From Phorcysia thermohydrogeniphila (GTDB lineage: Bacteria > Aquificota > Aquificia > Desulfurobacteriales > Desulfurobacteriaceae), in the NCBI RefSeq assembly GCF_004339575.1, contig NZ_SMFV01000001.1, positions 1 through 64,000 of the forward strand: DNA of 64,000 bases. Direction: 5' to 3'. Below, in pieces: positions 9,040-44,802 of this stretch (its first letter is position 1; every line of letters starts with the position of its first letter). Both the position numbers and the translations under genes were made by a program. The notes under the pieces are model-generated. The model was not told where the DNA came from and searched no databases. It worked only from the letters and a program-made list of their open reading frames with translations.

Positions 9040-9046
9040 ATATTCT

Positions 9047-9106
9047 TCACAGGGAGAGTCTGAGAGGGGACAAAATTTCCTTCACCCTGTCAGATTTTTC
9101 TTTAGA
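9047..9106 (+). terminator. CRISPR trailer hairpin 1 / probable terminator
   Basis: The inner stem GAGGGGA (9064-9070) pairs with TTCCTTC (9077-9083). An outer ACAGGG / CCCTGT pair closes it and a T-rich run (GATTTTTCTTT) follows, so here the element looks like an intrinsic terminator. Related hairpins follow all four arrays in the window. Confidence 0.7.
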
Positions 9107-10289: not shown

Positions 10290-10454
10290 TATAATCTAAC
10301 TACATGGTCTTTGAAAACTGAATAGGGCAGAAGGGGCATAGTTCAGTATACTGAAACTTTTTGCTCGGAAGTGCTAATTTCCAATGAGTTATAGAGTTTG
10401 ATGGAAAACTTAAGTTCTGGAGACCTTGATTTCCAATACTTCCAATTTTTTGCT
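10290..10454 (+). promoter_or_regulatory. CRISPR leader 2 with its promoter
   Basis: A TATAAT at 10290-10295 lies 8 bp after the stop codon of the CARF gene. The 150-bp leader runs from 10305 to 10454. It contains a perfect palindrome, TTCAGTATACTGAA, at 10342-10355, and repeats the string TTTTTGCT in the middle and at its end. Confidence 0.85.
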
Positions 10455-10880
10455 GTTGAAATGCCCGAAAAAGTGGACGGGATTGCGACTAGTCATAGTA
10501 TTGTGGACGCTCCCTCTTTGGAAGGAGCTCCCAGGTTGAAATGCCCGAAAAAGTGGACGGGATTGCGACGGCTTGTAAACAATAATACACATATCGCCCT
10601 CCTTAAATTGGTTGAAATGCCCGAGAAAGTGAGCGGGATTGCGACTTGTCAGTATCTTCTGGTGTGTTGTTCTCCGCGTCGCACTTACTTGAAATGCCCC
10701 AAAAAGTGAAGGGGATTGCAATTGCATTCCTGCCTGAACAATGTAGTGCTTAGGCAGGTAAACAAGTTGAAATGCCCGAAAAAGTGAGCGGGATTGCGAC
10801 GTTAGGGACGAATATTGCCTTAGCCCCACGGGCTAATAACTCTTGGTTGAAATGCCCTAAAAAGTGAGAGGGGTCTGTTT
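10455..10880 (+). CRISPR. CRISPR array 2 (six repeats, last ones decaying)
   Basis: The repeats are at 10455-10489, 10535-10569, 10611-10645, 10688-10722 (degenerate, ending GCAAT), 10766-10800 and 10846-10880 (degenerate at its 3' half). The spacers are 45, 41, 42, 43 and 45 bp. The first two repeats carry GTGGACGGG where others have GTGAGCGGG. The fourth repeat is already degenerate while the fifth is perfect, so the array has been altered internally as well as at its end. This is the longest of the four arrays. Confidence 0.96.
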
Positions 10881-14981: not shown

Positions 14982-15044
14982 TTTATTAAGTATAGGAAAT
15001 CTTGAAAAGGAGGTTTTTGATAAAATTGGCTAAAAAAGGGGAGG
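14982..15044. promoter_or_regulatory. divergent promoter region of the Calp and csm operons
   Basis: On the plus strand an extended -10, TGATAAAAT at 15018-15026, precedes csm1 and its GGGGAGG site (15038-15044). On the minus strand TATACT (14994-14989) can serve the Calp operon. Neither has a good -35. The two operons therefore share about 100 bp and could be co-regulated. Confidence 0.55.
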
Positions 15045-15052
15045 AAAGTTTT

Positions 15053-17833
15053 ATGAAGCTTGAGGTTGTAACCCTTGGAGCTCTCCTCCACGACATCGGC
15101 AAGTTCTACCAGAGAGGGGTTAGTGAAGAGGAATTAAAAAAACGTAAAGAAGAAGCTAAAGGATTACGCCACGAGGACTTTTCTGAAGATTTTTTAAACG
15201 AAAACAAAAAGCTCCTGTCCTTCCTTTTAGGAGAGGAAATTTCGGAGGAAACTTTAAATTTCCTCAAAGCCGCCGCTCAGTGTCATCACCTTTCTAAGCG
15301 CGAGAACGGAAAATGGGTCAGAAAGGAACGCTGTTTTGAATTGTTGAAAAACGAGGAAATAGGTCGTTACATAAAGGTCATTGAGAAGGCCGATAATTTA
15401 AGTGCCGGTCTTGAAAGAGTTGAGGTAGAGAAGTCCGATTTCAGGAGTTACGGAGGTTTAATAGAGGAGGACGGTAAGGACTATAGAACCAAAACTCTAC
15501 TTCCGATATTCTGCCTTGTTAGGCCGGGAGAGAGAATAACGGATATTGAGGGAAAAGACAGGGCTTGGGGTTATAAGTTTAAGGTGCTTAATACAAAGAA
15601 TTGTTTTCCTGAAGAGCTCTCGCCCCGAAAGGAGAACTCCTACCCAGACGGAGACAGGCAAAGGGATTACAGGGAGCTCTGGAAGAGTTTTAAGAAAGAG
15701 CTTGAAGGGCTTCTCAAGTTGGAGGAGCTTAAGGGGGAAGGAGGAGTACTTGACTTTAACTTTAAGTACGAAGCCTTAAAATACCTATTGATTAAGTATA
15801 CGTGGTGTATTCCATCGTACACCTATGCATTTTCCAAAGGGAAAGTTCCCATATCCGATATCCCTCTTGCTGACCACCTTTTGACTACTGCGGCTATAGC
15901 TACAGCTCTGGCAAGGTATGAAGAGGATACCGGCTGGAAACATAAGGAAGAAAAGCAGAAGGAGAAATTTATTCTCATGAGCTTAGACTTTTCGGGGATT
16001 CAAAGCTTTGTCTTCCGTCCTCCAAAAGAGACGAGGAAGTGGGCGGCCAAAATCTTGAGGGCGCGTTCGTTCCTTGTATCCTTAGCTCTTGAGACGGTCG
16101 TTAGGAAGGTAATTGAGGAGTTTAAAGTAAACATTTCTTCCGTTCTCCTGAATGCCGCAGGTAAAGTCTGGCTTCTCCTACCGAACGTGGATGTTGAAAA
16201 AAGGCTGGAAAAAGTCCGCAAGAAGTTGAGGGAAGAGCTCCTCAAAGACCCCTTCTACGGAGAGGTCAAGATTAGGTTTGCCTACGTTACGATGAGCGAG
16301 GAGGACTTTAGCCTTAGAAAGTTTTCTGAGAAGATAGAGGAACTCCAAAAGAAAGAGGCCGAGGAGAAGTTTACCCTGTTTGATATTGAGAAGCTGAACA
16401 GACTCCACGATGAAAAGAAAAGTTTCAAGGACTACTACAAGAAACTTTCAGATGAGGAAGATAAAAAAAGGCCTTGCATCGTTTGCGGTGTTTCACCGAG
16501 AAAAACCGATAAGGGTTTGTGCAAACTCTGCGACAGACTGGTAAAGATAGGTAAAAAACTCCCGAACTCTCGCTATATGAGGGTATGGTTCTCACCGATA
16601 AAGTTGGAGCTCTCTCCCTTCCCGACCCTTATACCTGAAAAAAAGGAAGAGCTTCCAGAAAACTTTGAGATAGCCTTCTTTAAGAACAAGGAGGAGCTGA
16701 AGGAAAGTCTTGAAAAAGTTCCCCTAAGGGAAAACGAGGTCATCTACGCCTTTGAAGAGCTTAGTGAAGAATCCGAAAAGGACAGGATTGTCTTACCGGT
16801 GAAGTTCCTTGAGAACTACGTTCCGACTACTGAACTTGATTTAGAGGTGGAAAAGCTGAGGAAACAAGGAGAGAGTGATAAAGCGAAAGAGCTTGAGTAT
16901 TGTTACGATGAAGAAATAAGAAGTGAAGTCAAAGAGAACGGAGAACCCATTCCGAAGAACTTCTGCCACTTGGCTCACGAGGCAGAGAAGGGGCCTCCCT
17001 ACTTGGGAGTCCTAAAGGCCGACGTTGACAGGCTGGGATTCATCTTCTCTAAGGGGTTTGCTAAAGTTCCGAGAGATGGCGGAGACGACTATTCTTCCCT
17101 TTCTGTTTCAAGGGTCGTTGCTCTGAGCAGGATGCTTGACTTTTTCTTTAATGCAGTGGTCAAAGAGTTGGTGAAAAAGGAAGTAAAGGACCTCTACAGC
17201 GTCTTTGCCGGCGGGGATGACCTCTTCCTCATAGGGCCTTGGGACAAGGTAATTGAGTTTGAGACAAAGCTCAGGGAAGCGTTTGAGAAGTTTACTTGCT
17301 ACAACAAGCACTTTACCATCTCTGTAGGTATAGAGATAGTTAAGCCCACATTGCCGTTAACTCTCATTGCTGAACTCTCAGAGAGGGCTTTGGGCAGGGC
17401 GAAGAAGAAGAGGAATACTACCTGTATTTTCGGTAAGAGGGTCTTTTACGGAAAGGGAAGAGTTGCAACGCTTAAGGAGTTGGTAGATAAAGCTGACGAG
17501 CTTGAGAAACTCTTGGAAGATGACAAAGGGAGCTCCTTCCTTTACAAACTTTACTACTTGTCAAGGCTTGCAAACGGAGAGTTTGATGATGAGGGCAAGG
17601 AATGTAAAGAGGACAGGGCTAAAAAGATTAGTTTGGAACGCTTCCTCTGGAGGCCTCGCCTTCGTTACTTAGTCTGGCGGAAGTTTAAGGAAGAGAAAAG
17701 ATACGAGGTGCTTAGCACACTGGAGAAAATGATAAGAGAACTTGCCGAGGATGTTACAGAGTGTGAAAAAGACAAAAAGGACAACCTCTTTTACATACCC
17801 TTTGCAATAGCCGTTTATAGGAGGAGGAGATGA
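15053..17833 (+). CDS. csm1: Csm1/Cas10, type III-A signature subunit
   Basis: 926 aa from the ATG at 15053 (GGGGAGG 8 bp upstream); a TTG at 15002 lies upstream of the promoter and is rejected. The N-terminal HD nuclease motif is LGALLHDIGKFYQR with H13-D14. A zinc-binding pair CIVC (from residue 475) and CKLC follows. The palm polymerase motif FAGGDDLF has GGDD at 720-723. So both target-activated ssDNA cleavage and cyclic oligoadenylate synthesis should be possible. It is the first gene of the csm operon, overlaps csm2 by 4 bp, and is somewhat longer than typical Csm1. Confidence 0.97.
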   Translation: MKLEVVTLGALLHDIGKFYQRGVSEEELKKRKEEAKGLRHEDFSEDFLNENKKLLSFLLGEEISEETLNFLKAAAQCHHLSKRENGKWVRKERCFELLKNEEIGRYIKVIEKADNLSAGLERVEVEKSDFRSYGGLIEEDGKDYRTKTLLPIFCLVRPGERITDIEGKDRAWGYKFKVLNTKNCFPEELSPRKENSYPDGDRQRDYRELWKSFKKELEGLLKLEELKGEGGVLDFNFKYEALKYLLIKYTWCIPSYTYAFSKGKVPISDIPLADHLLTTAAIATALARYEEDTGWKHKEEKQKEKFILMSLDFSGIQSFVFRPPKETRKWAAKILRARSFLVSLALETVVRKVIEEFKVNISSVLLNAAGKVWLLLPNVDVEKRLEKVRKKLREELLKDPFYGEVKIRFAYVTMSEEDFSLRKFSEKIEELQKKEAEEKFTLFDIEKLNRLHDEKKSFKDYYKKLSDEEDKKRPCIVCGVSPRKTDKGLCKLCDRLVKIGKKLPNSRYMRVWFSPIKLELSPFPTLIPEKKEELPENFEIAFFKNKEELKESLEKVPLRENEVIYAFEELSEESEKDRIVLPVKFLENYVPTTELDLEVEKLRKQGESDKAKELEYCYDEEIRSEVKENGEPIPKNFCHLAHEAEKGPPYLGVLKADVDRLGFIFSKGFAKVPRDGGDDYSSLSVSRVVALSRMLDFFFNAVVKELVKKEVKDLYSVFAGGDDLFLIGPWDKVIEFETKLREAFEKFTCYNKHFTISVGIEIVKPTLPLTLIAELSERALGRAKKKRNTTCIFGKRVFYGKGRVATLKELVDKADELEKLLEDDKGSSFLYKLYYLSRLANGEFDDEGKECKEDRAKKISLERFLWRPRLRYLVWRKFKEEKRYEVLSTLEKMIRELAEDVTECEKDKKDNLFYIPFAIAVYRRRR

Positions 17834-21378: not shown

Positions 21379-22157
21379 TGCCGGTGAAACTTCTTTTAAA
21401 GTTCGGGCTTTCTTCTCCCGTTAAGGTTTCCTCTTTAAAACCTAAGGTAATTCACGGCATTTTCTTTTCCCTATTTCAGAAAAACAAGGAAGTCGGGGAG
21501 CTCCTCCACTCTCCCAGCTTAAAGCCTTTCACCCTCTTCTTCCCTGCCTACTTTAGAAAGCCGGAAGAGGAGGTTACCTCTTTCACCTTAGAGCTAAACC
21601 TTTTAAACAACGAGCTCTTTCCCGAAGTTGCGAGGGTTCTGTTTTTTGAGAAAGAGCTTGAGGTTTCTGTAAACGGAGTGAAGGCGGAGCTCCGCTCTTT
21701 AAAGCCCGTCCTCGTTGAAACCTACGAGGGGATGCTAAAGGGGAGCTCTCCAAAAAGGGACATAGTCTTAGACTTCTTAACGCCTACCTCCTTTAGAAAG
21801 AAGGATGCTGACCTTGTTCTTCCAGAGCCTTACCTTGTATTCAGGAACCTTTTAAGGCGCTGGAACGCCTTTTCTCCAATTAAGATTCCTCCGAGGGAGC
21901 TGATTTCTTTTGTGAAAGAAAACCTCTTTGTTTCCGGTTGCTGGATAAAGACAAAAAAGGTAGAAATAATGAATGAGGCAAAAATAACCGGCTTTATGGG
22001 TAGAGTTTACTTTTACGCTTTTAAGGAAGAGCCAGAAGCCCTAAAGGCGCTGAATGCCCTCTGTAGGTTCTCTGAGTTTTCCGGCGTTGGCAGGAAGACA
22101 ACTATGGGATTTGGAAAGGTTAGGTGGGAGAGGGAAAATGAAAGTTTTGAGGAGTGA
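21378..22157 (+). CDS. cas6: Cas6, CRISPR RNA processing endoribonuclease
   Basis: 259 aa with two ferredoxin-like halves and the C-terminal glycine-rich signature FSGVGRKTTMGFGKVRW that defines Cas6. An N-terminal His in KVIHGIFFSLF is a candidate for the catalytic residue. Cas6 cuts the repeat transcript and should leave the AUUGCGAC handle predicted from the arrays. It overlaps csm5 by 1 bp and the PLD-HerA gene by 20 bp, so all three appear translationally coupled. Confidence 0.95.
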   Translation: MPVKLLLKFGLSSPVKVSSLKPKVIHGIFFSLFQKNKEVGELLHSPSLKPFTLFFPAYFRKPEEEVTSFTLELNLLNNELFPEVARVLFFEKELEVSVNGVKAELRSLKPVLVETYEGMLKGSSPKRDIVLDFLTPTSFRKKDADLVLPEPYLVFRNLLRRWNAFSPIKIPPRELISFVKENLFVSGCWIKTKKVEIMNEAKITGFMGRVYFYAFKEEPEALKALNALCRFSEFSGVGRKTTMGFGKVRWERENESFEE

Positions 22158-24078
22158 TGAGATTTACGGTTGTATAGAGGGACTTATAAAAGAAGCAAAG
22201 GAATCTGTAAAGATTTCCTCTGCATGGCTAAGGGGAGGAATTGTTGAGGGGCTCTTAAACGGCCTTTCTTCTGGGGTTGAGCTTGAAGTTGTTTTAAGGG
22301 CGTCAGAACTCCAAGACCTTGTCATAACCGACGACAGAGTTTTTGAGAAGATAAGGGAAAAAGGGGGAATTATCTACCTTAACAGCAGGCTTCACGCAAA
22401 GTTTATAGTGATTGACGGGAAAAAGGCTGTTGTTGGCTCTGCAAACTTTACAGGGGCAGGTCTTTCAGATTACTCTCAGGGAAACATAGAGGCTGGCGTT
22501 TACTACGATGCCGACGACGACTCAGAGGAGCTGAGGAAGCTCGTAGAGTACTTTGAAAGGATAAAAGAAGACTCCTTTAGGTTTGACGACAGCCTTCTTG
22601 GGTTTGCAATAAACCCAGTAAAGTCTCGCTCCTTTGAGTTTGTTCTCCTTGAGCCAGATGTTGGAGAGCAGTCCTACGTAGAAGTTAGGAGCGAGGAGGG
22701 GATAGTTCTTGGAAGGGTTGTTAGCGTTTACTCCTACGATATGGGCTTCTTTGCCAATCCTTTTACTGCCGGAGAGTCGCCGGTTTTTGGCTCTATTGAT
22801 ACATTTAAAACCCTCTTTGCAGAGAGGAAAGGTAAGGACTGGAAAAAGGCAGCTGTGTGGTCCTACCTAAACGAAAACGGTAAAAAGGTAAAGATTGCCG
22901 TTGTTGACGTTGTTGGAGTTGTGAAGGACGGAAAGTTAGAAACTCCTTTAAAACCCTTTGATGTGGGAGCTCCCGTCTACTCTGCTTCCGAAAGAGCTCT
23001 AAAACTCCTAATGGAGAAGAACTTCTCTGGAAAAAAGATGAAATATCCTGTAAAGGTTGGAACTCTTGAAGGTAGCGATATTGAAGCTTTCGTAGACGCC
23101 GGAGAGGTTATAACTAAACACATGCTCGTCCTTGGGACGACAGGCTCAGGGAAGAGCTACTTTGTAAAGCTCTTTCTATCACGTTTTGTGAAAGAGACGG
23201 GAATTCAGATTTTCATCCTTGACCCTCACGGGGAGTACTTTGAGGATTTAAAGAGGTGGGGAGTTGAGGATATTGACCTCTTTCAACTTGAGGACACGAT
23301 TTTTCCGGTCTATCCGGAAGAGGTGGAGGAGCTTATAAAGAGTGCCGGCTATCCTGAGCTAATCAGCGGTAACAAAAATGAGGCAAGGAAAAACAGGGGA
23401 GTGATTTCAAAGTTCGTAAAGCCTGCATTCTCTACTACTTTGCTTAAAGAGAAAAGTTTGCTCTCTCTTTTAGATGAGTGTGAAAGCGTTAACGGTGTGA
23501 ACTTAGAGGAGGTGAAGGCGGAGCTCCTTACCCTCTTTGGAAGTACTGTCGGGAATCAGCCAGAAATCTGGGAAAAGCTTAAAGAGGGCTTAAACAGTAA
23601 AAGATCCGTGGTCATCTTTGACTTTTCTAAGATTACGACCCCAAAGAGTAGAGTTAACCTTGCAGGTTTTGTGATGCAGGAGCTCTTTTTACAGAACAAG
23701 GAAAGTAAAGAGGAGAGGCTCTTGGTTCTTGAGGAAGCTCACAGCTTTGCTCCTGAGTCAAGTTACGGAGACGTTTCTGCCGGTAAAGATAACCTCTCCC
23801 TCACTACGGCAAGGAAGATTGCCTCTGAGGGAAGGAAGTTTAACCTTGGGCTTTTAGTTATAACCCAGAGGCCGGCTCAGGTCAGTAAATACGTCCTCTC
23901 TCAGGCAAACACGCAGGTTATGTTTAGGACTATGAACTCTGCAGACCTTGATGCAATAATGAGCTACGTTGAGTTTACGAGGAGGGACATTGTGGAGCTC
24001 CTTCCCTCCTTCCAGACGGGAACGGCGGTTGTGAGTGGACTGGGAGCTCCGTTTCCCTTTGTGGTTAACGTTGAGTAG
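22138..24078 (+). CDS. PLD nuclease-HerA/DUF87 ATPase fusion in the csm operon
   Basis: 646 aa from the ATG at 22138, inside the 3' end of cas6. Residues 1-145 form a phospholipase-D-type nuclease domain with one HKD motif: H86, K88 and D93 in LHAKFIVIDG, then GSANFT at 100-105. Residues about 160-320 look like the barrel that precedes HerA ATPases. The ATPase follows, with Walker A GTTGSGKS (333-340), DPHGEY (362-367), Walker B LLVLEEAHSF and the motif NLGLLVITQRPAQVS. HerA ATPases are hexameric DNA translocases, so a DNA-translocating nuclease is expected. The 20-bp overlap with cas6 suggests co-expression with the CRISPR system; a housekeeping DNA-end function is the alternative. Confidence 0.88.
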   Translation: MKVLRSDEIYGCIEGLIKEAKESVKISSAWLRGGIVEGLLNGLSSGVELEVVLRASELQDLVITDDRVFEKIREKGGIIYLNSRLHAKFIVIDGKKAVVGSANFTGAGLSDYSQGNIEAGVYYDADDDSEELRKLVEYFERIKEDSFRFDDSLLGFAINPVKSRSFEFVLLEPDVGEQSYVEVRSEEGIVLGRVVSVYSYDMGFFANPFTAGESPVFGSIDTFKTLFAERKGKDWKKAAVWSYLNENGKKVKIAVVDVVGVVKDGKLETPLKPFDVGAPVYSASERALKLLMEKNFSGKKMKYPVKVGTLEGSDIEAFVDAGEVITKHMLVLGTTGSGKSYFVKLFLSRFVKETGIQIFILDPHGEYFEDLKRWGVEDIDLFQLEDTIFPVYPEEVEELIKSAGYPELISGNKNEARKNRGVISKFVKPAFSTTLLKEKSLLSLLDECESVNGVNLEEVKAELLTLFGSTVGNQPEIWEKLKEGLNSKRSVVIFDFSKITTPKSRVNLAGFVMQELFLQNKESKEERLLVLEEAHSFAPESSYGDVSAGKDNLSLTTARKIASEGRKFNLGLLVITQRPAQVSKYVLSQANTQVMFRTMNSADLDAIMSYVEFTRRDIVELLPSFQTGTAVVSGLGAPFPFVVNVE

Positions 24079-30642: not shown

Positions 30643-30648
30643 TATAAT
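30643..30648 (+). promoter_or_regulatory. mod operon promoter -10
   Basis: A consensus TATAAT lies 8 bp upstream of the first paired base of the riboswitch, so transcription should begin almost exactly at its P1 helix. No clear -35 is seen. Confidence 0.65.
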
Positions 30649-30655
30649 CCTTTCA

Positions 30656-30807
30656 CGGGTTCCGAGCCTGATTTCCTAAGGGCTTTAAGGCCTATGGAGT
30701 CAGGCCGATAGGGTGTGTCTGGAAACGGGCACGCCTCCCGGACTTGGAAAGGAACCCGAGCTTTAAGGGGTCAGTTCCGGTCCGGGGCTGACCCCTTAAG
30801 TATTTTT
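30656..30807 (+). promoter_or_regulatory. molybdenum cofactor (Moco) riboswitch with terminator expression platform
   Basis: P1 is CGGGTTCC (30656-30663) paired with GGAACCCG (30751-30758). Inside lie CGAGCCTG, the conserved GCCTCCC (from 30733) and TTGGAAAGGAA near the 3' side, which match what I recall of the Moco RNA motif. It is followed by a near-perfect long hairpin, AAGGGGTCAG (from 30765) with CTGACCCCTT, and a T-rich run, then the modA ribosome site. This arrangement implies transcription termination when Moco or its tungsten analogue is plentiful. A covariance-model search was not possible here. Confidence 0.75.
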
Positions 30808-35513: not shown

Positions 35514-35543
35514 TTGACAAACGAATTTTTATTATTGTAATAT
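35514..35543 (+). promoter_or_regulatory. cytochrome operon promoter
   Basis: A consensus TTGACA (35514-35519) is followed after 18 bp by TAATAT (35538-35543). An AT-rich inverted repeat, AAAGATA/TATCTTT, at about 35483-35507 lies just upstream and may end the mod transcript. The start would be near 35550, 27 bp before the barrel gene. Confidence 0.7.
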
Positions 35544-35576: not shown

Positions 35577-36818
35577 GTGGGGATAAGAGAAGGGTTACTG
35601 GCGCTGTCGCTGGGGGCGGGATTAGTAGCATCCCAGTCATTAGCTGCGGTAAAAATTCCCAGCTATGAGGGAGAGGTAGAAACGCAAATAGAGATTAGAG
35701 AAGATGTCCGTAGTGACGATTCCATCCCTTTTGATACCTACTTAAAGATTGACCTTAAGGATCTAAAAGGTAATTCTGACCTCTACTTCTACGGAAAGCT
35801 CTGGAAGGACTTTGGGTACGGTGGCACTTGGGAGGCTGACCTATATCAGCTCTACTTAGATGTTCCTCTCAATCAAGGTGCAAAGCTTACAGTTGGAAGA
35901 CAGTTTATATCAGAAGGTTTTGAAACTTTCGTATCTGATGCCTTAAAGTTTGAGCAAAAGTTAGAAAACGGTTTCAGGTATACCTTCTACATAGGTAAAC
36001 CGAGGTTCTTTGAGCCAAACACGCCCGACGGAGACGACTTTTTAGCCGGTTTTAAGTTTGACTACAAGGGCTTCTTCTTAGGGTTTCAACACTTAAGGAA
36101 CGATGGGAGGCTCGTAAAAAGTTCAGTTTCCTTTGGAAACTACAGCTACGTGAGCGAGGAGTTCTCATACTACACAAGGTTTGAAGTTGATACGGCTCAC
36201 GGGGAGCTCTTAGAGGCCAACTTAGGGCTTAATTACTTCCCTACGAGAAAGCTCCGCCTTACTACCAGCGTAGAGTACGTTGACCCAACCTATACCTATG
36301 GAGATGGACTTTACAGGGGAGAGCCGATTTTCTACCTCTTCTCGCCGCAAGGGAGGGAGCTCCGCTTTACACAGAGCCTTTACTACGACGTTACGGATGA
36401 GTGGCAGCTCTTTGAGTCCTACACGGCCGTTGACCTTCAGCGGGAAGGAAAGGACAACGGACACCTTTTAAAGGTAGGACTTATCAGGGACAGGTGGTTT
36501 GAGGAAGGTTTAAGGTGGTACGGAGCTTTCCTCTATCAAAATAGCTGGACGGGCATCCTAAGGGGAGTGGAGCTTGGTTTTACAAAGTGGTTCTGTGAGA
36601 AGTTTACCTTGAGGGGAACGGCTGACATAGCCCGTTACGATAAACTCATCTACGGTAAACAGTGGGCCAACGCCTTCTACCTTAGGGGAACTTATCAGGT
36701 GGGAGAGTTCTCAAACTTAGAGCTTGGTGTTGACCTTAGGAAAAATGAGGACTTTGAGAGGGATACCCGTTTAATCCTTAGGTACAATTACCTCTTCTGG
36801 AGTGGAGATAGGAAATGA
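35577..36818 (+). CDS. outer-membrane beta-barrel (porin-like) protein
   Basis: 413 aa from a GTG at 35577. A signal peptide ends near SQSLAAV. The rest is a long run of amphipathic, aromatic-rich strands with tight turns (DLYFYGKLWKDF, YTFYIGKPRFF, LILRYNYLFWSG), ending in a short C-terminal strand, typical of an outer-membrane barrel. It heads an operon of multiheme cytochromes, so a role like the porin of porin-cytochrome electron conduits is plausible. No closer family was recognised. It overlaps the next gene by 4 bp. Confidence 0.75.
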   Translation: MGIREGLLALSLGAGLVASQSLAAVKIPSYEGEVETQIEIREDVRSDDSIPFDTYLKIDLKDLKGNSDLYFYGKLWKDFGYGGTWEADLYQLYLDVPLNQGAKLTVGRQFISEGFETFVSDALKFEQKLENGFRYTFYIGKPRFFEPNTPDGDDFLAGFKFDYKGFFLGFQHLRNDGRLVKSSVSFGNYSYVSEEFSYYTRFEVDTAHGELLEANLGLNYFPTRKLRLTTSVEYVDPTYTYGDGLYRGEPIFYLFSPQGRELRFTQSLYYDVTDEWQLFESYTAVDLQREGKDNGHLLKVGLIRDRWFEEGLRWYGAFLYQNSWTGILRGVELGFTKWFCEKFTLRGTADIARYDKLIYGKQWANAFYLRGTYQVGEFSNLELGVDLRKNEDFERDTRLILRYNYLFWSGDRK

Positions 36819-37423
36819 GAAGTTTTGTTTTCGGCCTTTTAAGTCTGTTTTTGGCTGTTTCCCTCTTTTCCTGCGGAAAAGAGGGGAAGGTTGACTACAA
36901 GAGGGAGCTTGGGGCTGTAGCAAAGTTCCACCACAGGGACCATAAAGCCTTCATTGACGAGCACGGCTGTATTCCTTGCCACAAGATGAACGTTGAGATG
37001 AAGTGGGCCGATATAGAGGCTGCCGAAAAGGGTTCAAAGAAGCTCATAATGCCGTCAAAAGTTACCTGTCACTACTGCCACAACAACCCTGAAAAGACCC
37101 CGGCTCCAAACGCTCCGACAAAGTGCTACATCTGCCACTTTAACATGAAGGAGATAGAGCCGGCAGACCACAAAACCGGAAACTGGTTGAAAGACCACAG
37201 GTTTGCCTACTACGGCGAACCTAAAAGGTGCGACGAGTGCCACAGGCAGAGGTTCTGTATAGACTGTCACTCTCGCCGTGACGTGATAAAGCACAAGGTT
37301 CACCCAAGGAACTATGAATACACCCACAGCATAGAGGCAGCGGCCGACCCTGCCAAGTGTAGCAGGTGTCACCGCGTAGGTTTCTGTATGGAATGTCACA
37401 CAAAGGGGACTTGGGCAAGATGA
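36815..37423 (+). CDS. heptaheme c-type cytochrome, probable lipoprotein
   Basis: 202 aa. The N-terminal signal ends in LFSC, a lipobox, so the mature protein is probably membrane-anchored in the periplasm. Seven CXXCH motifs are visible: CIPCH, CHYCH, CYICH, CDECH, CIDCH, CSRCH and CMECH. Numerous extra His (HHRDHK, HRFAYYGE, HSIEAA) can be distal haem ligands. It starts as ATGA over the barrel gene's stop and may pass electrons between inner-membrane and outer-membrane partners. Confidence 0.88.
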   Translation: MRSFVFGLLSLFLAVSLFSCGKEGKVDYKRELGAVAKFHHRDHKAFIDEHGCIPCHKMNVEMKWADIEAAEKGSKKLIMPSKVTCHYCHNNPEKTPAPNAPTKCYICHFNMKEIEPADHKTGNWLKDHRFAYYGEPKRCDECHRQRFCIDCHSRRDVIKHKVHPRNYEYTHSIEAAADPAKCSRCHRVGFCMECHTKGTWAR

Positions 37424-38289
37424 GGAAGGGAATAGTTTTAGTTGGATTCTTGGTCTTTACAGCTGGAGAGGTTCTTGCTGCTACCTGTGGAGGAAAAGGT
37501 TATACGGGAACGGAGAATACTTACTGTCTAAGGTGTCACTCTGGGTGCCCTACCCTTCACGTTGTCAGCGAGGTGAAGGTTAAAGAAACAGAGTGCCTGA
37601 GGGTGCCTTCTGATTTCCCCCTTAAAGACGGCAGGATGGTCTGCACGACGTGCCACGATATGACTTCTAAAGGAAAGGACTTTTTAAGGGCTAAGAAGAG
37701 GCTTTTAAAGAGGTTTGACTTCTGTTTCCAGTGTCACAATCCAGACTGCTACAGGCAGTTTAATCCCCATAAGACCATAGCTTCTGAGCTAACTTGGGAA
37801 GAAAAGAAAAAGGCGTGCATTTATTGTCACGGAGTAGGAGCAACCTTAGACGCTTACAAGGCCTGTGTTGGCTGTCATACTAAAACTCCCCACGTAGGAG
37901 CTCCAGAACACCTCTTTGCCTCTAAGGAAAAGGTCAGGAAGCTCGTAGAAGGAAAAGAGGGAGTTTTAAATATAACCTCTATGAAGGAACTTAAGCCGAA
38001 GGTAGATGAAAGCGTTTTAAGAGAGAGGAAACCGAAGGTTATTTTAGTAAACGGAAAAATAGAGTGTATTACCTGCCACAATCCCCACCCGCAGATAGCT
38101 TTTGCAGCTCCACCTATGGATAGAGAGTGGGCGGAAGTTGCTAAGAGAGACCTTGATTACAGGCTTAAGAAAATGAAAGAGAAGCTTGAAGGCTTTGAGC
38201 TTAAGACAGAAGAAGTTGAGCTAATGAGTAGGGAGCTTACGGGAGGTAAGCTCTGTCAGGTCTGTCATTCCATTAACTCGCTGAAGTAG
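37420..38289 (+). CDS. heptaheme c-type cytochrome, periplasmic
   Basis: 289 aa from the ATG at 37420, overlapping the previous stop. A signal peptide ends at GEVLAAT. Seven CXXCH motifs are visible: CLRCH, CTTCH, CFQCH, CIYCH, CVGCH, CITCH and CQVCH. A haem-free stretch of about 80 residues (roughly 165-225) separates the fifth and sixth haem. The function is inferred only as periplasmic electron transfer. It lies 10 bp from the next cytochrome gene. Confidence 0.88.
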   Translation: MRKGIVLVGFLVFTAGEVLAATCGGKGYTGTENTYCLRCHSGCPTLHVVSEVKVKETECLRVPSDFPLKDGRMVCTTCHDMTSKGKDFLRAKKRLLKRFDFCFQCHNPDCYRQFNPHKTIASELTWEEKKKACIYCHGVGATLDAYKACVGCHTKTPHVGAPEHLFASKEKVRKLVEGKEGVLNITSMKELKPKVDESVLRERKPKVILVNGKIECITCHNPHPQIAFAAPPMDREWAEVAKRDLDYRLKKMKEKLEGFELKTEEVELMSRELTGGKLCQVCHSINSLK

Positions 38290-38299
38290 GGGGTAAAGA

Positions 38300-39394
38300 G
38301 TGAGAGCCTTGGTTCTTGGAGTAGTAGGAGCTCTGGCGCTTTCAGGGACGGCCTTGGGAGTTGGTATAAGCGATGATGGGTGTTTAAAGTGCCATAGGCT
38401 AAGGGGTTTATCTGTTGTAGATAGCAACAATAGGATAAAGGACTGCAGTATTAACGGAGCTCTCTACGCCCACTCCATCCACAGGAACGTGGGGTGTAGC
38501 GAGTGTCACGACAAGATAGAGCAGTATCCCCACAGGCCGGAAAACACGCAGGCCAACTGTGCAAACAAGTGTCACGTGGCCGACCCTTCAACGAAGAAGC
38601 CATTTTCCCACGAGAGAATCTTTGAAACTTGGAAAGAAAGCGTTCACGGGAAAAACTACGAGAAAGCTCCAGAGCTCTACCCAAGCTGTAGTTACTGCCA
38701 CGCTAACGAGCTCCTTGTGGACGTAGAAAAGTTTGAAGCTCTCAAAGGAAGCTTTAGCAGGTGCTCCCTGTGTCACGAGAATAAGGACTGGCTCAAGGAC
38801 AGGCTCTCCCACGTTGCAAGCAGGGAGCCCATTCCTCTCATAAAGAACGGCTTTGTCCACCAGTTTGTTAAGACAAGGCGAGACGGCTGGGAAATTGTGG
38901 AGCTCTGCGCAAGCTGTCACGAAGACAGAGAAAAGATGGAAAAGGCCTTAAAAGTTGAAGGGATAGAGGACGAGTTTGAAAAGGAAAGAGTTCTTACGGC
39001 CGTTGAGTCATACAAGGTAACCATGCACTCAAAGATGCTCTACCTTGATAGGGAGGATAACAGAGCTCCCGACTGCTTAGACTGCCATACCAACAAGGAT
39101 GGCAACTTCCACGACATATTCCACAAAGATGACCCCCGCTCTTCAATAAACGTGAAAAACATAGAGCTAACCTGTGGAAGGTCCACAGAGTGCCATCCTT
39201 TAGCTCCTATAAAAGACATGAAAAACTTTGCCACTACGAAATGGGTTCACATGCATCCTATTCCTGATTCTTTAGGTCAGAAAATAGTGAAAATCATAGA
39301 AGAGTTTATGTTCTGGCTCACGACGGGAACGCTCCTCTTTGCTGTGACGATTGTAGGACTTGACCTTCTTAAAAACTTGAGGAGGAAACACTAA
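38300..39394 (+). CDS. multiheme cytochrome c with C-terminal membrane anchor (up to eight haems)
   Basis: 364 aa from a GTG. There are six canonical sites (CLKCH, CSECH, CSYCH, CSLCH, CASCH and CLDCH) plus two expanded sites, CANKCH (CX3CH) and CGRSTECH (CX5CH), that may also bind haem. A C-terminal helix (about 332-356) anchors it to the inner membrane, ending KNLRRKH. With the cytochrome b gene that follows (overlap TAATG) it resembles the CbcA-CbcB type quinol-oxidising bc module of metal-reducing bacteria. This is an inference from architecture. Confidence 0.8.
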   Translation: MRALVLGVVGALALSGTALGVGISDDGCLKCHRLRGLSVVDSNNRIKDCSINGALYAHSIHRNVGCSECHDKIEQYPHRPENTQANCANKCHVADPSTKKPFSHERIFETWKESVHGKNYEKAPELYPSCSYCHANELLVDVEKFEALKGSFSRCSLCHENKDWLKDRLSHVASREPIPLIKNGFVHQFVKTRRDGWEIVELCASCHEDREKMEKALKVEGIEDEFEKERVLTAVESYKVTMHSKMLYLDREDNRAPDCLDCHTNKDGNFHDIFHKDDPRSSINVKNIELTCGRSTECHPLAPIKDMKNFATTKWVHMHPIPDSLGQKIVKIIEEFMFWLTTGTLLFAVTIVGLDLLKNLRRKH

Positions 39395-40326
39395 TGGGAC
39401 TCTGGGAGGCCTTCAAGAAGAGGTTTAGGATTAGACCCGAGCAGGACAAGCTTTTGATAGTTGACGGCGAAAAGATAATGATACAGAAGTTCACCCTCTT
39501 TCAAAGGCTCTTGCACGTGGGAATGTTTTCAACCTTCATATGGCAGATACTCTCAGGTTATCCCCTAAAGTTCTACAACACAGAGTGGGCCCAAGTAATG
39601 ATAAAGCTGCTCGGTGGCATTCCGGGCGAGATGACCATTCACAGGATATCTGGATTCATAATGTTCTCTGACTTTATGCTTACCGTCCTTTACATAATAC
39701 TCATACTGATAGCCAACTGGGACTTAGCCAAGAAGGATTTCTTTGGTTACTTCAAGATTGTTCCGGGACCGACGGATATTACGTTCGTTCACTACATCAA
39801 GTACCTCTTAGGACTTAGGAAAGTTCCTCCGGACTGGGACGAGTACATCTGGGTTGACAAGTTTGACTTCTGGGGTGTTGGATGGGGTATGTTTGCAATC
39901 GGTATTACCGGTTGGATGCTGTGGCTTCCTGAGGTCTTTACCGGTTACCTTGGACTACCTCCTGAAACTATTCAAATTGCCTACCTCATGCACTCAGACG
40001 AGGCAGTCTTGGCCCTTGGATGGATTGCCCTTGTCCACATGTACATCGTTCACTACGGACCTAACAAATTCCCTATGGACTGGATATGGCTCTCTGGAAC
40101 GGCTTCAGAAATTGAGTGGATAGAGGAGAGGCCGAGAAGTTACAGGAGAATAATAAAGGCCGTAGCAGAGAACGAACCCCACCTCCTTGAAAAGTACCCG
40201 TTCTTAAAGGAGCGCTACGAGTTTGTCCTTGAAGTGGAGAAACTGCCCGAGGAGGAGATGATAAAGAGGATGCACGAGTACGCTCACCATCTCCTTGAAA
40301 AGGAAGTTGAAGGGAGGACTGCGTAA
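39394..40326 (+). CDS. cytochrome b subunit (formate dehydrogenase gamma/CbcB-like)
   Basis: 310 aa with about four membrane helices and His pairs positioned for two b haems: FQRLLHVGMFS, TIHRISGFIMF, IAYLMHSDEAVLAL and LVHMYIVHYGPNKFPMDW. The last stretch matches the HMYxVHxGPxxFP signature of this cytochrome b group. It should oxidise menaquinol and hand electrons to the adjacent membrane-anchored multiheme cytochrome. A long charged C-terminal tail faces the cytoplasm. Confidence 0.85.
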   Translation: MGLWEAFKKRFRIRPEQDKLLIVDGEKIMIQKFTLFQRLLHVGMFSTFIWQILSGYPLKFYNTEWAQVMIKLLGGIPGEMTIHRISGFIMFSDFMLTVLYIILILIANWDLAKKDFFGYFKIVPGPTDITFVHYIKYLLGLRKVPPDWDEYIWVDKFDFWGVGWGMFAIGITGWMLWLPEVFTGYLGLPPETIQIAYLMHSDEAVLALGWIALVHMYIVHYGPNKFPMDWIWLSGTASEIEWIEERPRSYRRIIKAVAENEPHLLEKYPFLKERYEFVLEVEKLPEEEMIKRMHEYAHHLLEKEVEGRTA

Positions 40327-41039
40327 TGAAGAAGTTTCTGGTGCTTGCGTTTCTAATAACGGGCGGTGTAGCCGTAGCAGGCAGTAACCCACTCCTAACA
40401 GCTCCAGCTACAGACTCAAAGAAGTGGGAAGAAAAGTTGAAAGAGTTTGAAAGGCCAGAACTTCCAAAGGAAGAAGGCTATCCCAAGCCTTTCCACTCTC
40501 CAAACAGCTATGAGTACGCTTTAAATGACGTTTGTTCTGCTTGTCACACCTTTGCTGCCCACAAAAAGGACGAAAAGTACGCACCCTTTTACAACGCCCA
40601 TGGAACTTTCTTGAGCTGCAATACCTGCCACTTCGTTAAAGAGGGCGTAACCTACAGGTGGGGAGAGATTGAAGGTGGCAAGGTTGTCCTTAAAGAAAGT
40701 GGAGACTTCTATGGCTTAGAGTACGTTCGCTTAGGAAACAGAGTGGTTCTTTCAGGCGAGGATAGTAAGGCAAAAATCCTTCCGGTTCTAAACGGAGAGC
40801 CTGTAGAGCTCCCTCTTAAAGGCAATGAAGGACTCTTGGACGATCCTGCTGCTGTTGCGAGGATGCACAACGCCTTAACAGAGCCCTTAAAGTGTGACGA
40901 CTGCCACAGGGAGAGCGGAAGGCTTGACTTTAGAGCTCTCGGCTTTAGCGAGGAAAGGGTAAGGGACCTTGAACACAACGAAGTCCTTGAAGGACTTAAA
41001 AAGTACGAAACCCTCCACTTTCCAAAATTCATCTGGTAG
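40326..41039 (+). CDS. triheme c-type cytochrome
   Basis: 237 aa with a signal peptide ending at VAVAGS. Three CXXCH motifs are visible: CSACH, CNTCH and CDDCH. A beta-rich, haem-free region of about 80 residues lies between the second and third. It probably belongs to the same electron path as the neighbouring cytochromes. The stop of the cytochrome b gene overlaps its ATG. Confidence 0.82.
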   Translation: MKKFLVLAFLITGGVAVAGSNPLLTAPATDSKKWEEKLKEFERPELPKEEGYPKPFHSPNSYEYALNDVCSACHTFAAHKKDEKYAPFYNAHGTFLSCNTCHFVKEGVTYRWGEIEGGKVVLKESGDFYGLEYVRLGNRVVLSGEDSKAKILPVLNGEPVELPLKGNEGLLDDPAAVARMHNALTEPLKCDDCHRESGRLDFRALGFSEERVRDLEHNEVLEGLKKYETLHFPKFIW

Positions 41040-41051
41040 AGGTAGAGGAAG

Positions 41052-41852
41052 ATGAGACTTCTCTTGGCCGTGCTCCTTTCACTGCTTTCTTTAGCCGGAG
41101 CTCTTGCAGAGGAGATAAAGGGAGACTGGAAGTTCCCTTCCGATATAGCCGTTGACGGCGAGAAGCTCTTTGTGGTTGACGGACTCAACGACCGCATAGC
41201 CGTTTACGACCTTTACGGTGAGCACATCGGGGACATAAAAGTAAAAGCTCCCTTTGGAATTTACGCTGAGAAAGGGCTCCTCTACGTTACGAGCCAGAAG
41301 GGCAAGCTCTACGTAATGGACGAGTATGGAAATGTTGAGAAGGAGCTTGAGCTTGAAGGAAGGCCGATAGACGTTGTTAGGTTTGGCGACAAGCTCTTCG
41401 TAACGAACGGAGAGACCAACACAATTGACGTTTACAGCTTGGACGGGGAACTCTTAGAGAGAATTGGAGGAAAAGGTTCTGCGCCGGGACAGTTTGTGGG
41501 GGTCTTCCTTGCTGACAGGTCAAAGGACCTCCTCTTTGTTGTGGACTCCATCAACGCAAGGATTCAGGAGTTTAACTTTAACGGGAAGCTTATAGACTCT
41601 TTTGGAAACTTTGGCGTTGAAGAAGGGAAACTCTTTAGACCTAAGGGGGTTGCCTACTGTAACGGAGTAGTTGTTGTCTCTGACTGCATTACGGGAGTTG
41701 TTCAGACCTTTAACCTTCATGGAGGTTTCTTGGACGTCGTTGCTGAAGACCTTTACTACCCGACTGCTTTAGCCTGTAGTGGAGATGAACTTTTCGTCCT
41801 TGAACCGTTGAAGGGGAAAGTTTCCATATTCAGGATTCAAGGGGTAAGGTAA
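41052..41852 (+). CDS. secreted NHL-repeat beta-propeller protein
   Basis: 266 aa with a signal peptide (LLSLAGALAEE). Six-fold repeats of the type FPSDIAVDGEKLFVVDGLNDRI / DVYSLDGELLERIGG form a beta-propeller. NHL or WD-type propellers are frequent in outer-surface electron-transfer operons, where they may scaffold cytochromes. The start has AGGTAGAGGAAG upstream, and the stop overlaps the 24-haem gene (TAATG). Confidence 0.85.
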   Translation: MRLLLAVLLSLLSLAGALAEEIKGDWKFPSDIAVDGEKLFVVDGLNDRIAVYDLYGEHIGDIKVKAPFGIYAEKGLLYVTSQKGKLYVMDEYGNVEKELELEGRPIDVVRFGDKLFVTNGETNTIDVYSLDGELLERIGGKGSAPGQFVGVFLADRSKDLLFVVDSINARIQEFNFNGKLIDSFGNFGVEEGKLFRPKGVAYCNGVVVVSDCITGVVQTFNLHGGFLDVVAEDLYYPTALACSGDELFVLEPLKGKVSIFRIQGVR

Positions 41853-44494
41853 TGAGGAAAACCTTAGCAATTCTTTTGACCGTTCTGGTTCTTCCGGGAG
41901 TTTCAGAGGCAAAGCTCAAGAAGAGTATGAAAAAAGAGTGTTTGGTCTGCCACGAGAACTGGTTGCTTGAGACAAAGGTGGAATCTCCGAAACTTTTAAG
42001 CAATAGGTCCTTAAAGGCTGCAGATAAGCTTATGTGCCTTTCCTGTCACGATGGTTCCCTTGCTGACGATAGGGAAACTTTCCTCGGCTTTGGTCACTTT
42101 TCCCACCCGGTAGACAAAGAAGTACCTAAGGACTTTAAGTTGCCGAAAGGCTTCCCAACTAAGGACGGAAAGCTCTACTGTGGAACTTGTCACACTCCCC
42201 ACACTGAAACCGGTAGCGAGAAGAAACTTGACTACACCTTCATGAGGAAGCCGAACGTAAACTCTGCCCTCTGTATGGAATGCCACAAAGCGAACGCCGA
42301 GCACGGAATGAACCATCCCATTTTAGAGGATACTGCTGATAAGCTCAGCGATGAGCTAATAGAGAAAATTTCCCTTCTTGGTGGAAGGGTTACTGAGAGT
42401 GGGGAGCTCCAGTGTGAATCCTGCCACTCCCCTCATAAGGGAAAAGCCAAGAAAGCTCTGTTAAAGCCGGTTGACAGATCACAGCTTTGTATCGTCTGCC
42501 ATACCGATAGGCTTAACTCTGAAGAGCATAAAGATTACAGAAATCACCCAATTCACAAAGACTTCCCCGAAGAGGCAGAGATAGCCCTATTTGAAGAGAA
42601 GAAGGCTATTACAAAATCTGTTGAGTGTATGACCTGCCACAAGGTTCACAAGGAGGAGAACAAACACCTCCTCGTGGCGAAAGAGGAAAAGCTCTGTTCC
42701 TCCTGCCACGTTGAGGAGGGTAAAGTTAGCTCTACAAAACACAATATCGCTGGTAACTCCTGTAAAAGCTGTCACACTCCTCATAAAGCAAAGGGTCCAA
42801 AGCTCTGGAGCAGGGAAATTCCAGAAGACGCCTATGACTACGCTTCAATCATAGAGGTCAAGGGTAAGAGTGATATCCTTTGTCTTTCCTGCCACTATAC
42901 CGGGAACAAGATAGAAGGCAAGGAAGTTGTAACCGTTGGAACGCTTACACACCCGACGGGCAAGAGCTTAAAAGAGAAGGTTAATCTACCCCTCCCCAAC
43001 AAAAAACTTGCCTGTGTTACCTGCCATGACCCTCACCACGCTTACGACGACGGTAAAGAGAGTAAGTTCTTGAGGAAGGAAAGGCTTTCCCTCTGCTACA
43101 CGTGCCATAAATCTCAGACTAAGGTGAAAGAGGGAGCACACGGAGAGATAGACAAGAAGAGGTGGAAGAAGGGAGACTGTTTTGCCTGCCACAACGTTCA
43201 CAACGCCAAGGACGGTTACCTTTCAAGGGTAGTTTACGGTGAAATATCCCCTATGGAACCTGCGGTTGACGGTTTCTGCTTAGCTTGCCACGACCCTGAA
43301 GGTATGGCTGAGCATAAGGTTAAAGAGTCTATCTACAACGAACACCCTGTTGGAGTAAAGAACCCAACGAATAAACTGCCCGGCAAGAAAATTGCCTGCG
43401 TTACCTGCCACGAGCCCCACTCCCACGAGGAGGAGCTCCTCAGAATTCCCGTAAAAGGAGATTCTGCTCTTTGCCTGACTTGCCATACAGATAAGAACCT
43501 TAAAGGAACTTCCCACGATTTACTTCACAACCCGGAAGTTAAGCTCTCAGAGGAAGAAAGGAAGGAACTCCTTAAAGGTGGAGCCTGCTCTGCCTGTCAT
43601 ACTCCTCACAATCCGGCGTACAAGGTTCTCTGGTCAAGGAAGCTTGGAAAAGGTAGAACTATAAACGAGAGGATGTGTAACTCTTGCCACTCTGAGGGTG
43701 GGTTGGCTGCCGATAAGACGATAGGAAAACATACCCACCCATTCGGTAGGGAAGTTACAGAGAAGAACCTTAAGATGATTAAGAATTCCAGACTTCCGCT
43801 CATAAGCCAGATGACAGGCCATCCGGCCAAGCGGGGTGAGTCCGGTGTCCTTGACTGTGCAACTTGCCACGAGCCCCACAACGGTGCCGACAAGAAGAGA
43901 CTTACGAGGTACACAGTTGAAGGAGATAGCTCTCTCTGTACAGCCTGCCACACCAGCGAAGCGGCGGTTGTCGGTACAGACCACGATATGCGCGTTGTGG
44001 GTAAGAAGTTAAAGGGTGGCGTCTGCTCTGCATGCCACGTTCCCCACAACGCAAAAAATGAGCTTCTCTGGGCTAAGGAGGTTAAGAGAGTCTCCGGTAA
44101 CAGAATGTCTGACTACTGCCTCTCCTGCCACACTAAGGGAGGACTTGGAGAGAGCAAGGTTATCAAGTACTACTACCATCCATCTAAGGACGTTAAGGTT
44201 AAAAACCTTGACAGGCCGGGAAGGGAAGGCGACTGGCCTCTCTTTACGAAGGATGGCAAGAAGGTAAGTGTCGGTGGAGAGATTGTCTGCGAGACTTGCC
44301 ATAATCCACACGTCTGGAGTAAAGACGGAGGAGCTCCCCATAAACCTGTTGAGGGTAACGTCCTTAACAGCTTCCTGAGGAATAGAACCTTAAAGGGTAG
44401 CATCTGCGTTGACTGTCATGGACTTGACGCCCTTTACAGGTATAAATTCTTCCATACTAAGAAAGTTCACCAAGAAACCCCCTCTTACAAGTAG
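41852..44494 (+). CDS. 24-haem c-type cytochrome
   Basis: 880 aa with a signal peptide ending near VSEAK. I count 24 CXXCH motifs spread over the whole chain, most in units of [CX2CH]-x-PH (CGTCHTPH, CESCHSPH, CVTCHDPH, CSACHTPH and others), and the second His is a likely ligand. The repetition suggests growth by tandem duplication of a doubled-CXXCH domain. A haem wire this long suits transport across the periplasm or outer membrane to an extracellular acceptor. The final acceptor cannot be read from sequence. It is followed after 13 bp by two tiny membrane genes. Confidence 0.92.
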   Translation: MRKTLAILLTVLVLPGVSEAKLKKSMKKECLVCHENWLLETKVESPKLLSNRSLKAADKLMCLSCHDGSLADDRETFLGFGHFSHPVDKEVPKDFKLPKGFPTKDGKLYCGTCHTPHTETGSEKKLDYTFMRKPNVNSALCMECHKANAEHGMNHPILEDTADKLSDELIEKISLLGGRVTESGELQCESCHSPHKGKAKKALLKPVDRSQLCIVCHTDRLNSEEHKDYRNHPIHKDFPEEAEIALFEEKKAITKSVECMTCHKVHKEENKHLLVAKEEKLCSSCHVEEGKVSSTKHNIAGNSCKSCHTPHKAKGPKLWSREIPEDAYDYASIIEVKGKSDILCLSCHYTGNKIEGKEVVTVGTLTHPTGKSLKEKVNLPLPNKKLACVTCHDPHHAYDDGKESKFLRKERLSLCYTCHKSQTKVKEGAHGEIDKKRWKKGDCFACHNVHNAKDGYLSRVVYGEISPMEPAVDGFCLACHDPEGMAEHKVKESIYNEHPVGVKNPTNKLPGKKIACVTCHEPHSHEEELLRIPVKGDSALCLTCHTDKNLKGTSHDLLHNPEVKLSEEERKELLKGGACSACHTPHNPAYKVLWSRKLGKGRTINERMCNSCHSEGGLAADKTIGKHTHPFGREVTEKNLKMIKNSRLPLISQMTGHPAKRGESGVLDCATCHEPHNGADKKRLTRYTVEGDSSLCTACHTSEAAVVGTDHDMRVVGKKLKGGVCSACHVPHNAKNELLWAKEVKRVSGNRMSDYCLSCHTKGGLGESKVIKYYYHPSKDVKVKNLDRPGREGDWPLFTKDGKKVSVGGEIVCETCHNPHVWSKDGGAPHKPVEGNVLNSFLRNRTLKGSICVDCHGLDALYRYKFFHTKKVHQETPSYK

Positions 44495-44507
44495 CGGAGG
44501 TTAGAAA

Positions 44508-44657
44508 ATGGCAAGGGAAGTAAGCTCTAAGGATATAGAAAGGGAAGCTTTAATAGTTCTAATAGCTGCCCTTTCCATACTCCTCCTTCCTATCTTGGGA
44601 GTTTGGTTTGTAAAGTTCGTCCACTGGTACTCCAACTCAATATTTATGTGGCTATGA
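44508..44657 (+). CDS. small single-TM protein at the end of the cytochrome operon
   Basis: 49 aa from the ATG at 44508, with CGGAGG 6 bp upstream. An acidic/basic N-terminus (MAREVSSKDIEREA) precedes one strong membrane helix (LIVLIAALSILLLPILGVWF) and a short tail with Trp. It is in line with the cytochrome genes and 13 bp after the 24-haem stop. The size and layout recall small subunits of respiratory membrane complexes. Confidence 0.65.
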   Translation: MAREVSSKDIEREALIVLIAALSILLLPILGVWFVKFVHWYSNSIFMWL

Positions 44658-44667
44658 GGAGGAAGGC

Positions 44668-44802
44668 GTGGGAAGAGCTCTAAGGAATATATTCTTCTTC
44701 AGGAAGTGGATAGCCTCTGTTGAGCTTATCCTCTACATCTTTATGTTCCTAACCCTTATAATGACTGCCTACAACCACCTCTTTGGTGGAGGTCACCACT
44801 AA
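44668..44802 (+). CDS. second small single-TM protein of the cytochrome operon
   Basis: 44 aa from a GTG at 44668, with GAGGAGGAAGG just upstream. One hydrophobic helix (SVELILYIFMFLTLIMTAY) ends in a Gly/His tail (GGGHH). It begins 10 bp after the previous small gene and ends 3 bp before the deaminase gene. No family was recognised. Confidence 0.6.
   Translation: MGRALRNIFFFRKWIASVELILYIFMFLTLIMTAYNHLFGGGHH

Follow-up and report, generated by a model that had tools for sequence, protein, structure and literature searches.

A multihaem cytochrome operon of the Desulfurobacteriaceae, probably a route of electron export across the cell envelope, and its D-H cassette in other phyla

The closest described counterparts of the genes considered here are porin-cytochrome (Pcc) clusters. 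Shi, Fredrickson and Zachara (2014; PMC4245776) found a single pcc cluster in each of two species, Thermovibrio ammonificans and Desulfurobacterium thermolithotrophum, placed them in Group III and suggested that they serve extracellular reduction of elemental sulfur (S0); the respective membrane cytochromes, Theam_0871 and Dester_0351, are 79% identical in their account and carry six CX2CH and two CX3-5CH motifs. We analyzed an operon of ten genes, A to J, that spans positions 35577-44802 on the plus strand of a stretch of 64,000 nucleotides of DNA from the hot-vent bacterium Phorcysia thermohydrogeniphila (contig NZ_SMFV01000001.1; "the window" denotes this whole stretch). The homologues of its octahaem cytochrome D in T. 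ammonificans and D. thermolithotrophum (genomes G132 and G123) are 79.8% identical and show the six plus two motifs. On the basis of this agreement with the published motifs and identity, D is taken to be orthologous to Theam_0871 and Dester_0351, and the operon to be an orthologue of the published cluster. Orthologues of A, B and C are also present in both species, and the two components that characterize Pcc clusters, a gene for a porin-like barrel (A) and a nearby gene for a multihaem cytochrome of presumed periplasmic location (C), stand together in the window. We assign the operon, by sequence, to the published Group III clusters (Thermovibrio, Desulfurobacterium, Denitrovibrio). The original prediction, made from the DNA letters and their open reading frames (ORFs), had likened the operon to porin-cytochrome modules in concept while holding its proteins to be different; this part has to be abandoned, orthologues having been published as a Group III pcc cluster. 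By contrast, the available text of Shi et al. gives no account of the 24-haem protein H, of G, I and J or of an arrangement of D to H that extends across phyla, and its outer-membrane cytochromes have 1-15 typical motifs.

We consider it probable that A-J encode a trans-envelope route of electron export. The b-type cytochrome E would take electrons from menaquinol and hand them to D and to the trihaem F, and the three would work as a single quinol:cytochrome c complex. From there the electrons would run along the exported haem wire H, which the propeller G would hold or dock, and would cross the outer membrane by way of the barrel A, the lipoprotein B and C, the last lying within or below the barrel. 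I and J would be small subunits in the membrane that probably belong to the D-E complex. The gene set, the conservation of haem motifs and histidines, the barrel fold, the conserved order and the D-E-F fusions described below were computed, whereas the direction of flow, the order of docking and the acceptor are our interpretation. A path from quinol to the cell surface had been proposed before, and the combination of barrel, lipoprotein, periplasmic cytochrome, octahaem protein with cytochrome b and a 24-haem H capable of bis-histidine ligation fits it better than a soluble reductase.

Table 1. Features of the operon and of a second cytochrome locus in genus g4; positions refer to the window unless a locus is named.
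Feature	Position	Strand	Assignment	Evidence
Promoter-like site TTGACA-N18-TAATAT, upstream of A	35514..35543	+		best regional match, 10/12
A	35577..36818	+	outer-membrane beta-barrel, 413 amino acids (aa), no haem	AlphaFold2, Foldseek
B	36815..37423	+	7-haem lipoprotein cytochrome c, 202 aa	7 CXXCH, lipobox-like ...LFSC
C	37420..38289	+	7-haem periplasmic cytochrome c	7 CXXCH, signal peptide, no lipobox
D	38300..39394	+	membrane-anchored octahaem cytochrome c	6 CX2CH + CX3CH + CX5CH, C-terminal transmembrane helix
E	39394..40326	+	b-type cytochrome, Ni_hydr_CYTB/b561 family, candidate menaquinol oxidase	PF01292, six invariant His
F	40326..41039	+	3-haem cytochrome c, 237 aa	3 CXXCH + 3 further invariant His
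G	41052..41852	+	exported NHL-type beta-propeller, 266 aa, no haem	PF17170, PF01436, signal peptide
H	41852..44494	+	24-haem exported cytochrome c, 880 aa, candidate haem wire	24 CXXCH, Paired_CXXCH_1
I	44508..44657	+	49 aa, one hydrophobic helix	tblastn, alignment of 12 loci
J	44668..44802	+	44 aa, one hydrophobic helix	tblastn, alignment of 12 loci
Second cytochrome locus of g4	L097 6105-11867 (G126); L098 7761-13505 (G124)

The five c-type cytochromes contain 47 CXXCH motifs (7 in B, 7 in C, 6 in D, 3 in F and 24 in H) and, in D, a CX3CH at residue 87 and a CX5CH at residue 292, in agreement with the 47 plus two counted from the sequence; in 1000 shufflings of the five proteins, CXXCH turned up 0.37 times on average and never more than 3 times. 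The expanded motifs of D are not due to chance, since they are kept in 20/20 orthologues compared, down to 51% identity. Every full-length orthologue retains the 7 motifs of B (16/16), the 7 of C, the 6+2 of D and the 3 of F, and most H orthologues have 24, with 27 in locus L032, 28 in L034 and 13 in L041. Histidines beyond the motifs that are invariant among 16 to 21 orthologues per protein (18 alignment rows for H) number 24 for the 24 haems of H, nine for the eight of D, three for the three of F and eight for the seven of B. Because these numbers equal or exceed the haem numbers, each haem of the four proteins could have two histidine ligands, a pattern that, as far as sequence can tell, favours conduction over catalysis; the alternative of a soluble reductase was considered in this light, and H, D and F display no sign of a catalytic haem. 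A cytochrome c maturation protein (ResB) is also present.

Within the proposed quinol-oxidizing module, D ends in a hydrophobic helix, and E exceeds the cut-off of PF01292 (47.9 versus 30.1 bits), which places it in the superfamily of b561 and Ni-hydrogenase cytochromes b. E stays below the cut-off for formate dehydrogenase gamma subunits (TIGR01583, 27.2 bits against 115.85), as does F below that for quinol dehydrogenases of the NapC/NirT (CymA) family (PF03264, 21.9 against 24.1 bits). G scores above the cut-offs of PF17170 (40.7 bits) and PF01436 (30.9 bits), and H, which has a signal peptide and no anchor, matches Paired_CXXCH_1 with 210.7 bits. The decahaem MtrA/DmsE model TIGR03508 is not passed, the best score being 144.1 bits (H) against a cut-off of 192.2. 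Compared with the Protein Data Bank (PDB), H yields four weak matches at E <= 0.001, one of them doubtful, including 9yuq, a "putative multiheme cytochrome c"; none of the four is named OmcS, OmcE or OmcZ. The profiles of A, D and E found no match among PDB sequences, PF22678 found none in the window's own genome, and tblastn of E found none in plasmids. Cbc complexes of Geobacter (CbcL, CbcBA and Cbc5) also unite a membrane multihaem cytochrome c with a cytochrome b, a likeness in composition. The Geobacter ExtH-S cluster, whose reported components include a Rieske protein and a cytochrome b of the bc type, was rejected as a match. As separate observations, H-like proteins of about 345 aa with 10 haems are encoded in genomes G122 and G135 (L099 9220-10263 and L100 216-1244), the first directly after a moeA-like gene; in L037 of G122, a metagenome assembly, E is only 71% identical to that of the window, compared with 87-92% in most of the family, and the C-terminal helix of D diverges as well, so that the tail of D and E look as if replaced together.

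The outer-membrane front opens with A, which matches no Pfam or NCBIfam family. Its AlphaFold2 model, built with 16 orthologues, has 22 strands (pLDDT 73, pTM 0.62), and the top 50 Foldseek rows against the PDB are all outer-membrane barrels, the best at E 3.7e-9, so that the non-barrel fold named earlier as a possible refutation did not occur. B starts with a signal peptide that leads to a lipobox-like cysteine and may be an outer-membrane lipoprotein; C, with a signal peptide, no lipobox and a Paired_CXXCH_1 match at 2.5e-12, would reside in the periplasm. The combination of barrel, periplasmic and outer-membrane cytochromes is shared in concept with OmbB-OmaB-OmcB and MtrCAB; unlike MtrCAB, the operon encodes no protein that passes the decahaem MtrA-type model, and its barrel has 22 strands.

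The operon is not peculiar to this organism. The search for E covered 136 genomes of the phylum (22 of the family, 2 of a sister family and 112 others) and returned 22 matches, namely 21/22 in the family, 1/2 in the sister family and 0/112 elsewhere. D occurs in 20/22 family genomes (missed in G131 and G121), as does F (missed in G127 and G121), and A in 16/22, with 0/4 in one genus, here called g4. Fourteen of the 20 stretches fetched around E contain A-H complete, with A directly before B in all 14, and two (L036, L042) are cut by contig ends. The E proteins of Desulfurobacteriales form one fully supported group in the tree, with long-branch warnings. The operon is therefore standard in the Desulfurobacteriaceae and ordinary for the family, and the opposite view, that such a path is no standard part of its metabolism, fails on these counts. 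The front A-C is exchangeable and separable from D-H, because g4 keeps D-H without A. That genus has a second cytochrome locus (Table 1) for 5-, 8- and 6-haem proteins and a PPIC-type peptidyl-prolyl isomerase, which could be a substitute outer front or a filament locus; a cytochrome of g4 that looked OmcS-like by eye was dropped as a candidate after matching no solved structure.

With respect to gene content, all eight proteins named in the original prediction (A-H) are present at the positions given, and the gaps from A through H are short or overlapping, but two small genes within its own coordinates, I and J, had been missed. Both show a coding-like pattern conserved across 12 aligned loci. 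tblastn finds I in 18/18 loci with sequence beyond H, at 81-92% identity in most of the Desulfurobacteriaceae, 53-57% in g4 and 37% in L041; J is found at E <= 1.3e-13 in 12 loci and weakly (0.001-0.03) in three g4 loci, and was not detected by tblastn in L027, L034 and L041. The start of C was set at the ATG at 37420 rather than at the GTG at 37366 chosen by the ORF tool. The promoter-like site upstream of A comes from a scan in which the number of sites equalled the shuffled expectation, that is, with no excess over chance.

A profile of D run over 391 genomes produced 54 matches, and ten neighbourhoods were fetched among the strongest outside the phylum (G328 was not included, although its match was slightly stronger than that of the last neighbourhood chosen). 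Seven of the ten have the cassette around D: D-E-F-G-H are separate genes in L123, L125, L126 and L128, E and F are fused in L122, and D, E and F are fused in the same order, judged by domain positions, in L124 and L127. These fusions argue that D, E and F act together. L129 has F-G-H, and L130 and L131, where D- and E-like genes are arranged differently, were not counted. F matches 29/391 genomes, only eight of them outside the order Desulfurobacteriales, so the cassette is scattered rather than general. F is found in 19/50 genomes of the phylum of G245, which we take to be Deferribacterota; G401 is presumably Deferribacter desulfuricans and G408 presumably Denitrovibrio acetiphilus. In the putative D. 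desulfuricans genome, hidden Markov models (HMMs) recover a C-like gene followed by D-E-F-G-H in order, H having 28 haems, and no match to A or B in the stretches read. In the putative Denitrovibrio genome a barrel related to A (hhalign 97.1%, E 6.9e-11) and a 7-haem relative of B (HMM, 1e-35) adjoin each other downstream of H. D-E-F-G-H is a portable cassette that retains its gene order across Desulfurobacteriales, Deferribacterota and other phyla; the survey of homology and synteny proposed earlier thus finds the operon in almost all family genomes and the order D-H shared with Deferribacterota.

A cluster of 19 genes for multihaem proteins, DEFDS_0741-60, has been described in Deferribacter (PMC13186404, PMC6896113), and in the published passages its third gene, at the position that E has here, is a cytochrome b561; it differs from the operon of the window in its 28-haem H and in other proteins after it. 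The gene order seen in the putative D. desulfuricans genome agrees with this published cluster. The same position is labelled formate dehydrogenase for three species in one account (PMC13186404). The corresponding gene of the putative D. desulfuricans (L142 9505-10401) occupies the position of E, and its product clears the cut-off of the cytochrome b561 model, which suggests, by position, that the protein so labelled is the cytochrome b E; a formate-coupled reading of Fe(III) reduction by the Deferribacter cluster may rest on this label. We did not find the D-H cassette described in the open-access literature searched, a weak negative that rests partly on passages (further sources, seen in part: PMC12724263, PMC5441870, PMC3570795, PMC3368423, PMC5877670, PMC8860800, PMC11434368).

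Several observations weigh against a route that leads outward across both membranes to sulfur. Three fetched g4 loci have D-H preceded by a 2-haem lipoprotein and no A or C at the locus, and L041, from the sister family, has D-H with a 13-haem H, again without A or C; crossing of the outer membrane is thus not universal, and in these lineages D-H might end in the periplasm. In G121, a 98% complete genome from the genus of D. thermolithotrophum, A, D, E and F are absent from the assembly, where a gap is possible. C has five invariant additional histidines for seven haems, which leaves two haems without an invariant distal histidine, and the AlphaFold2 model of H, from an alignment of 21 rows, is too poor to show a wire (pLDDT 57, pTM 0.44). 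Flow is assigned its direction by deduction and could also run inward. Finally, Deferribacter thermophilus is reported to have the cluster in two parts and to use no sulfur species; the cassette therefore has no fixed link to S0.

For the Desulfurobacteriaceae we regard elemental sulfur or polysulfide outside the cell as the likeliest acceptor, a best guess, followed by Fe(III) and other solids; in Deferribacterota the cassette may deliver electrons to different solids, for instance Fe(III). According to the literature, the acceptors of T. ammonificans include nitrate and S0 and exclude thiosulfate and sulfite, and those of D. thermolithotrophum are S0, thiosulfate, sulfite and polysulfide, neither nitrate nor nitrite being used; both have A-H, and S0 is favoured because the two share it. 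Two published accounts describe the family's route of sulfur reduction as unclear or unknown. No match to a molybdopterin oxidoreductase was found in the four g4 genomes (G124-G127), all of which have D and three of which, as fetched, keep D-H; the cassette therefore does not serve solely to feed Nap or Psr/Phs. G123 has a single molybdopterin oxidoreductase match. A link to molybdenum enzymes, considered because of the neighbouring genes, was rejected as a requirement in view of g4 and of the stretches from G123 and G128. In the genome of the window, nitrate is served by a separate operon, which includes a NapC/NrfH-like quinol dehydrogenase. The same genome encodes a fused TtrB-TtrA-like molybdoenzyme of 1168 aa (L149 2371-7090, G000:C5), followed by a haem-free protein of 399 aa that may be a porin.

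It is possible, although we would not call it probable, that the operon delivers electrons to extracellular acceptors in general, be they metal oxides or conductive minerals of the chimney (Fe(III), Mn(IV), electrodes), and that S0 is a side substrate. The same D-H cassette is found in Deferribacter clusters that have been tied to Fe(III) reduction, D. autotrophicus is reported to reduce Fe(III), and Pcc complexes reduce Fe(III) in Geobacter (PMC4245776); however, D. desulfuricans, which carries the cluster, is reported to be non-iron-reducing, and the literature searched contains no Fe(III) growth for Desulfurobacteriaceae, a weak argument as few tests may exist. That H and C instead store electrons or feed a periplasmic enzyme, A being an unrelated porin, seems unlikely to us. 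The absence of A from the loci of g4 and the sister family, the lack of an anchor on the exported H, and the molybdenum cofactor genes next to the operon, with a riboswitch upstream, speak for it, whereas the constant position of A before B, the recurrence of a barrel-B pair in Deferribacterota, the lack in g4 of a molybdopterin oxidoreductase to feed and the failure to find any of the searched molybdenum genes in stretches around the cluster of G123 and G128 speak against it. Still less likely, in our view, is electron uptake, in which sulfide minerals, partner cells or Fe(II) would feed the quinone pool by an inward path. The hosts are autotrophs living in conductive chimneys, and a chain in which all haems of H, D and F could be bis-histidine ligated would be reversible in principle. 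Against uptake, the hosts are reported to use H2 as donor via their own hydrogenases, and the pairing of cytochrome b with an octahaem protein resembles quinol-oxidizing modules, by annotation only. Reduction or detoxification of nitrite or hydroxylamine is very improbable: F and H are weakly similar to NrfB and octahaem families, but all such matches fall far below curated cut-offs, an HAO-like octahaem gene and the Nap genes lie in another operon, and D. thermolithotrophum is reported to use neither nitrate nor nitrite.

In the window, the operon is preceded by genes that by eye form a modABC-moeA-moeA series, itself preceded by a molybdenum/tungsten cofactor riboswitch at 30648-30770 (Rfam RF01055, 78 bits), the only element that an Rfam scan found upstream. 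Farther away, repeats resembling clustered regularly interspaced short palindromic repeats, about 76-80 bases apart, occur in two groups (8845-9055 and 10441-10880), near ORFs that by eye resemble type III Cas genes, one of which (15002-17833) would encode a protein with a GGDD motif; an ORF at 22054-24078 looks by eye like a fusion of a PLD nuclease with a HerA-type ATPase and adjoins the presumed Cas genes.

Returning to electron export as the function that we favour, the recognition of D-H as one cassette joins clusters that were described separately, and g4, without molybdopterin oxidoreductases, and G121, without the operon, offer natural controls. We tentatively suggest, short of considering it likely, that D-E-F represent an unnamed family of quinol:multihaem-cytochrome oxidoreductases, shared by Desulfurobacteriales and Deferribacterota with two or more further lineages, sometimes as one fused protein, and accompanied downstream by a propeller and the haem wire, a system that would plug into interchangeable outer-membrane fronts. 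In the Desulfurobacteriaceae this system would be the missing respiratory route to S0, by which solid sulfur would be respired outside the cell without a molybdoenzyme; the operon, being conserved and having both a defined quinol module and an outer-membrane front, provides a single target for the study of sulfur reduction in the family.

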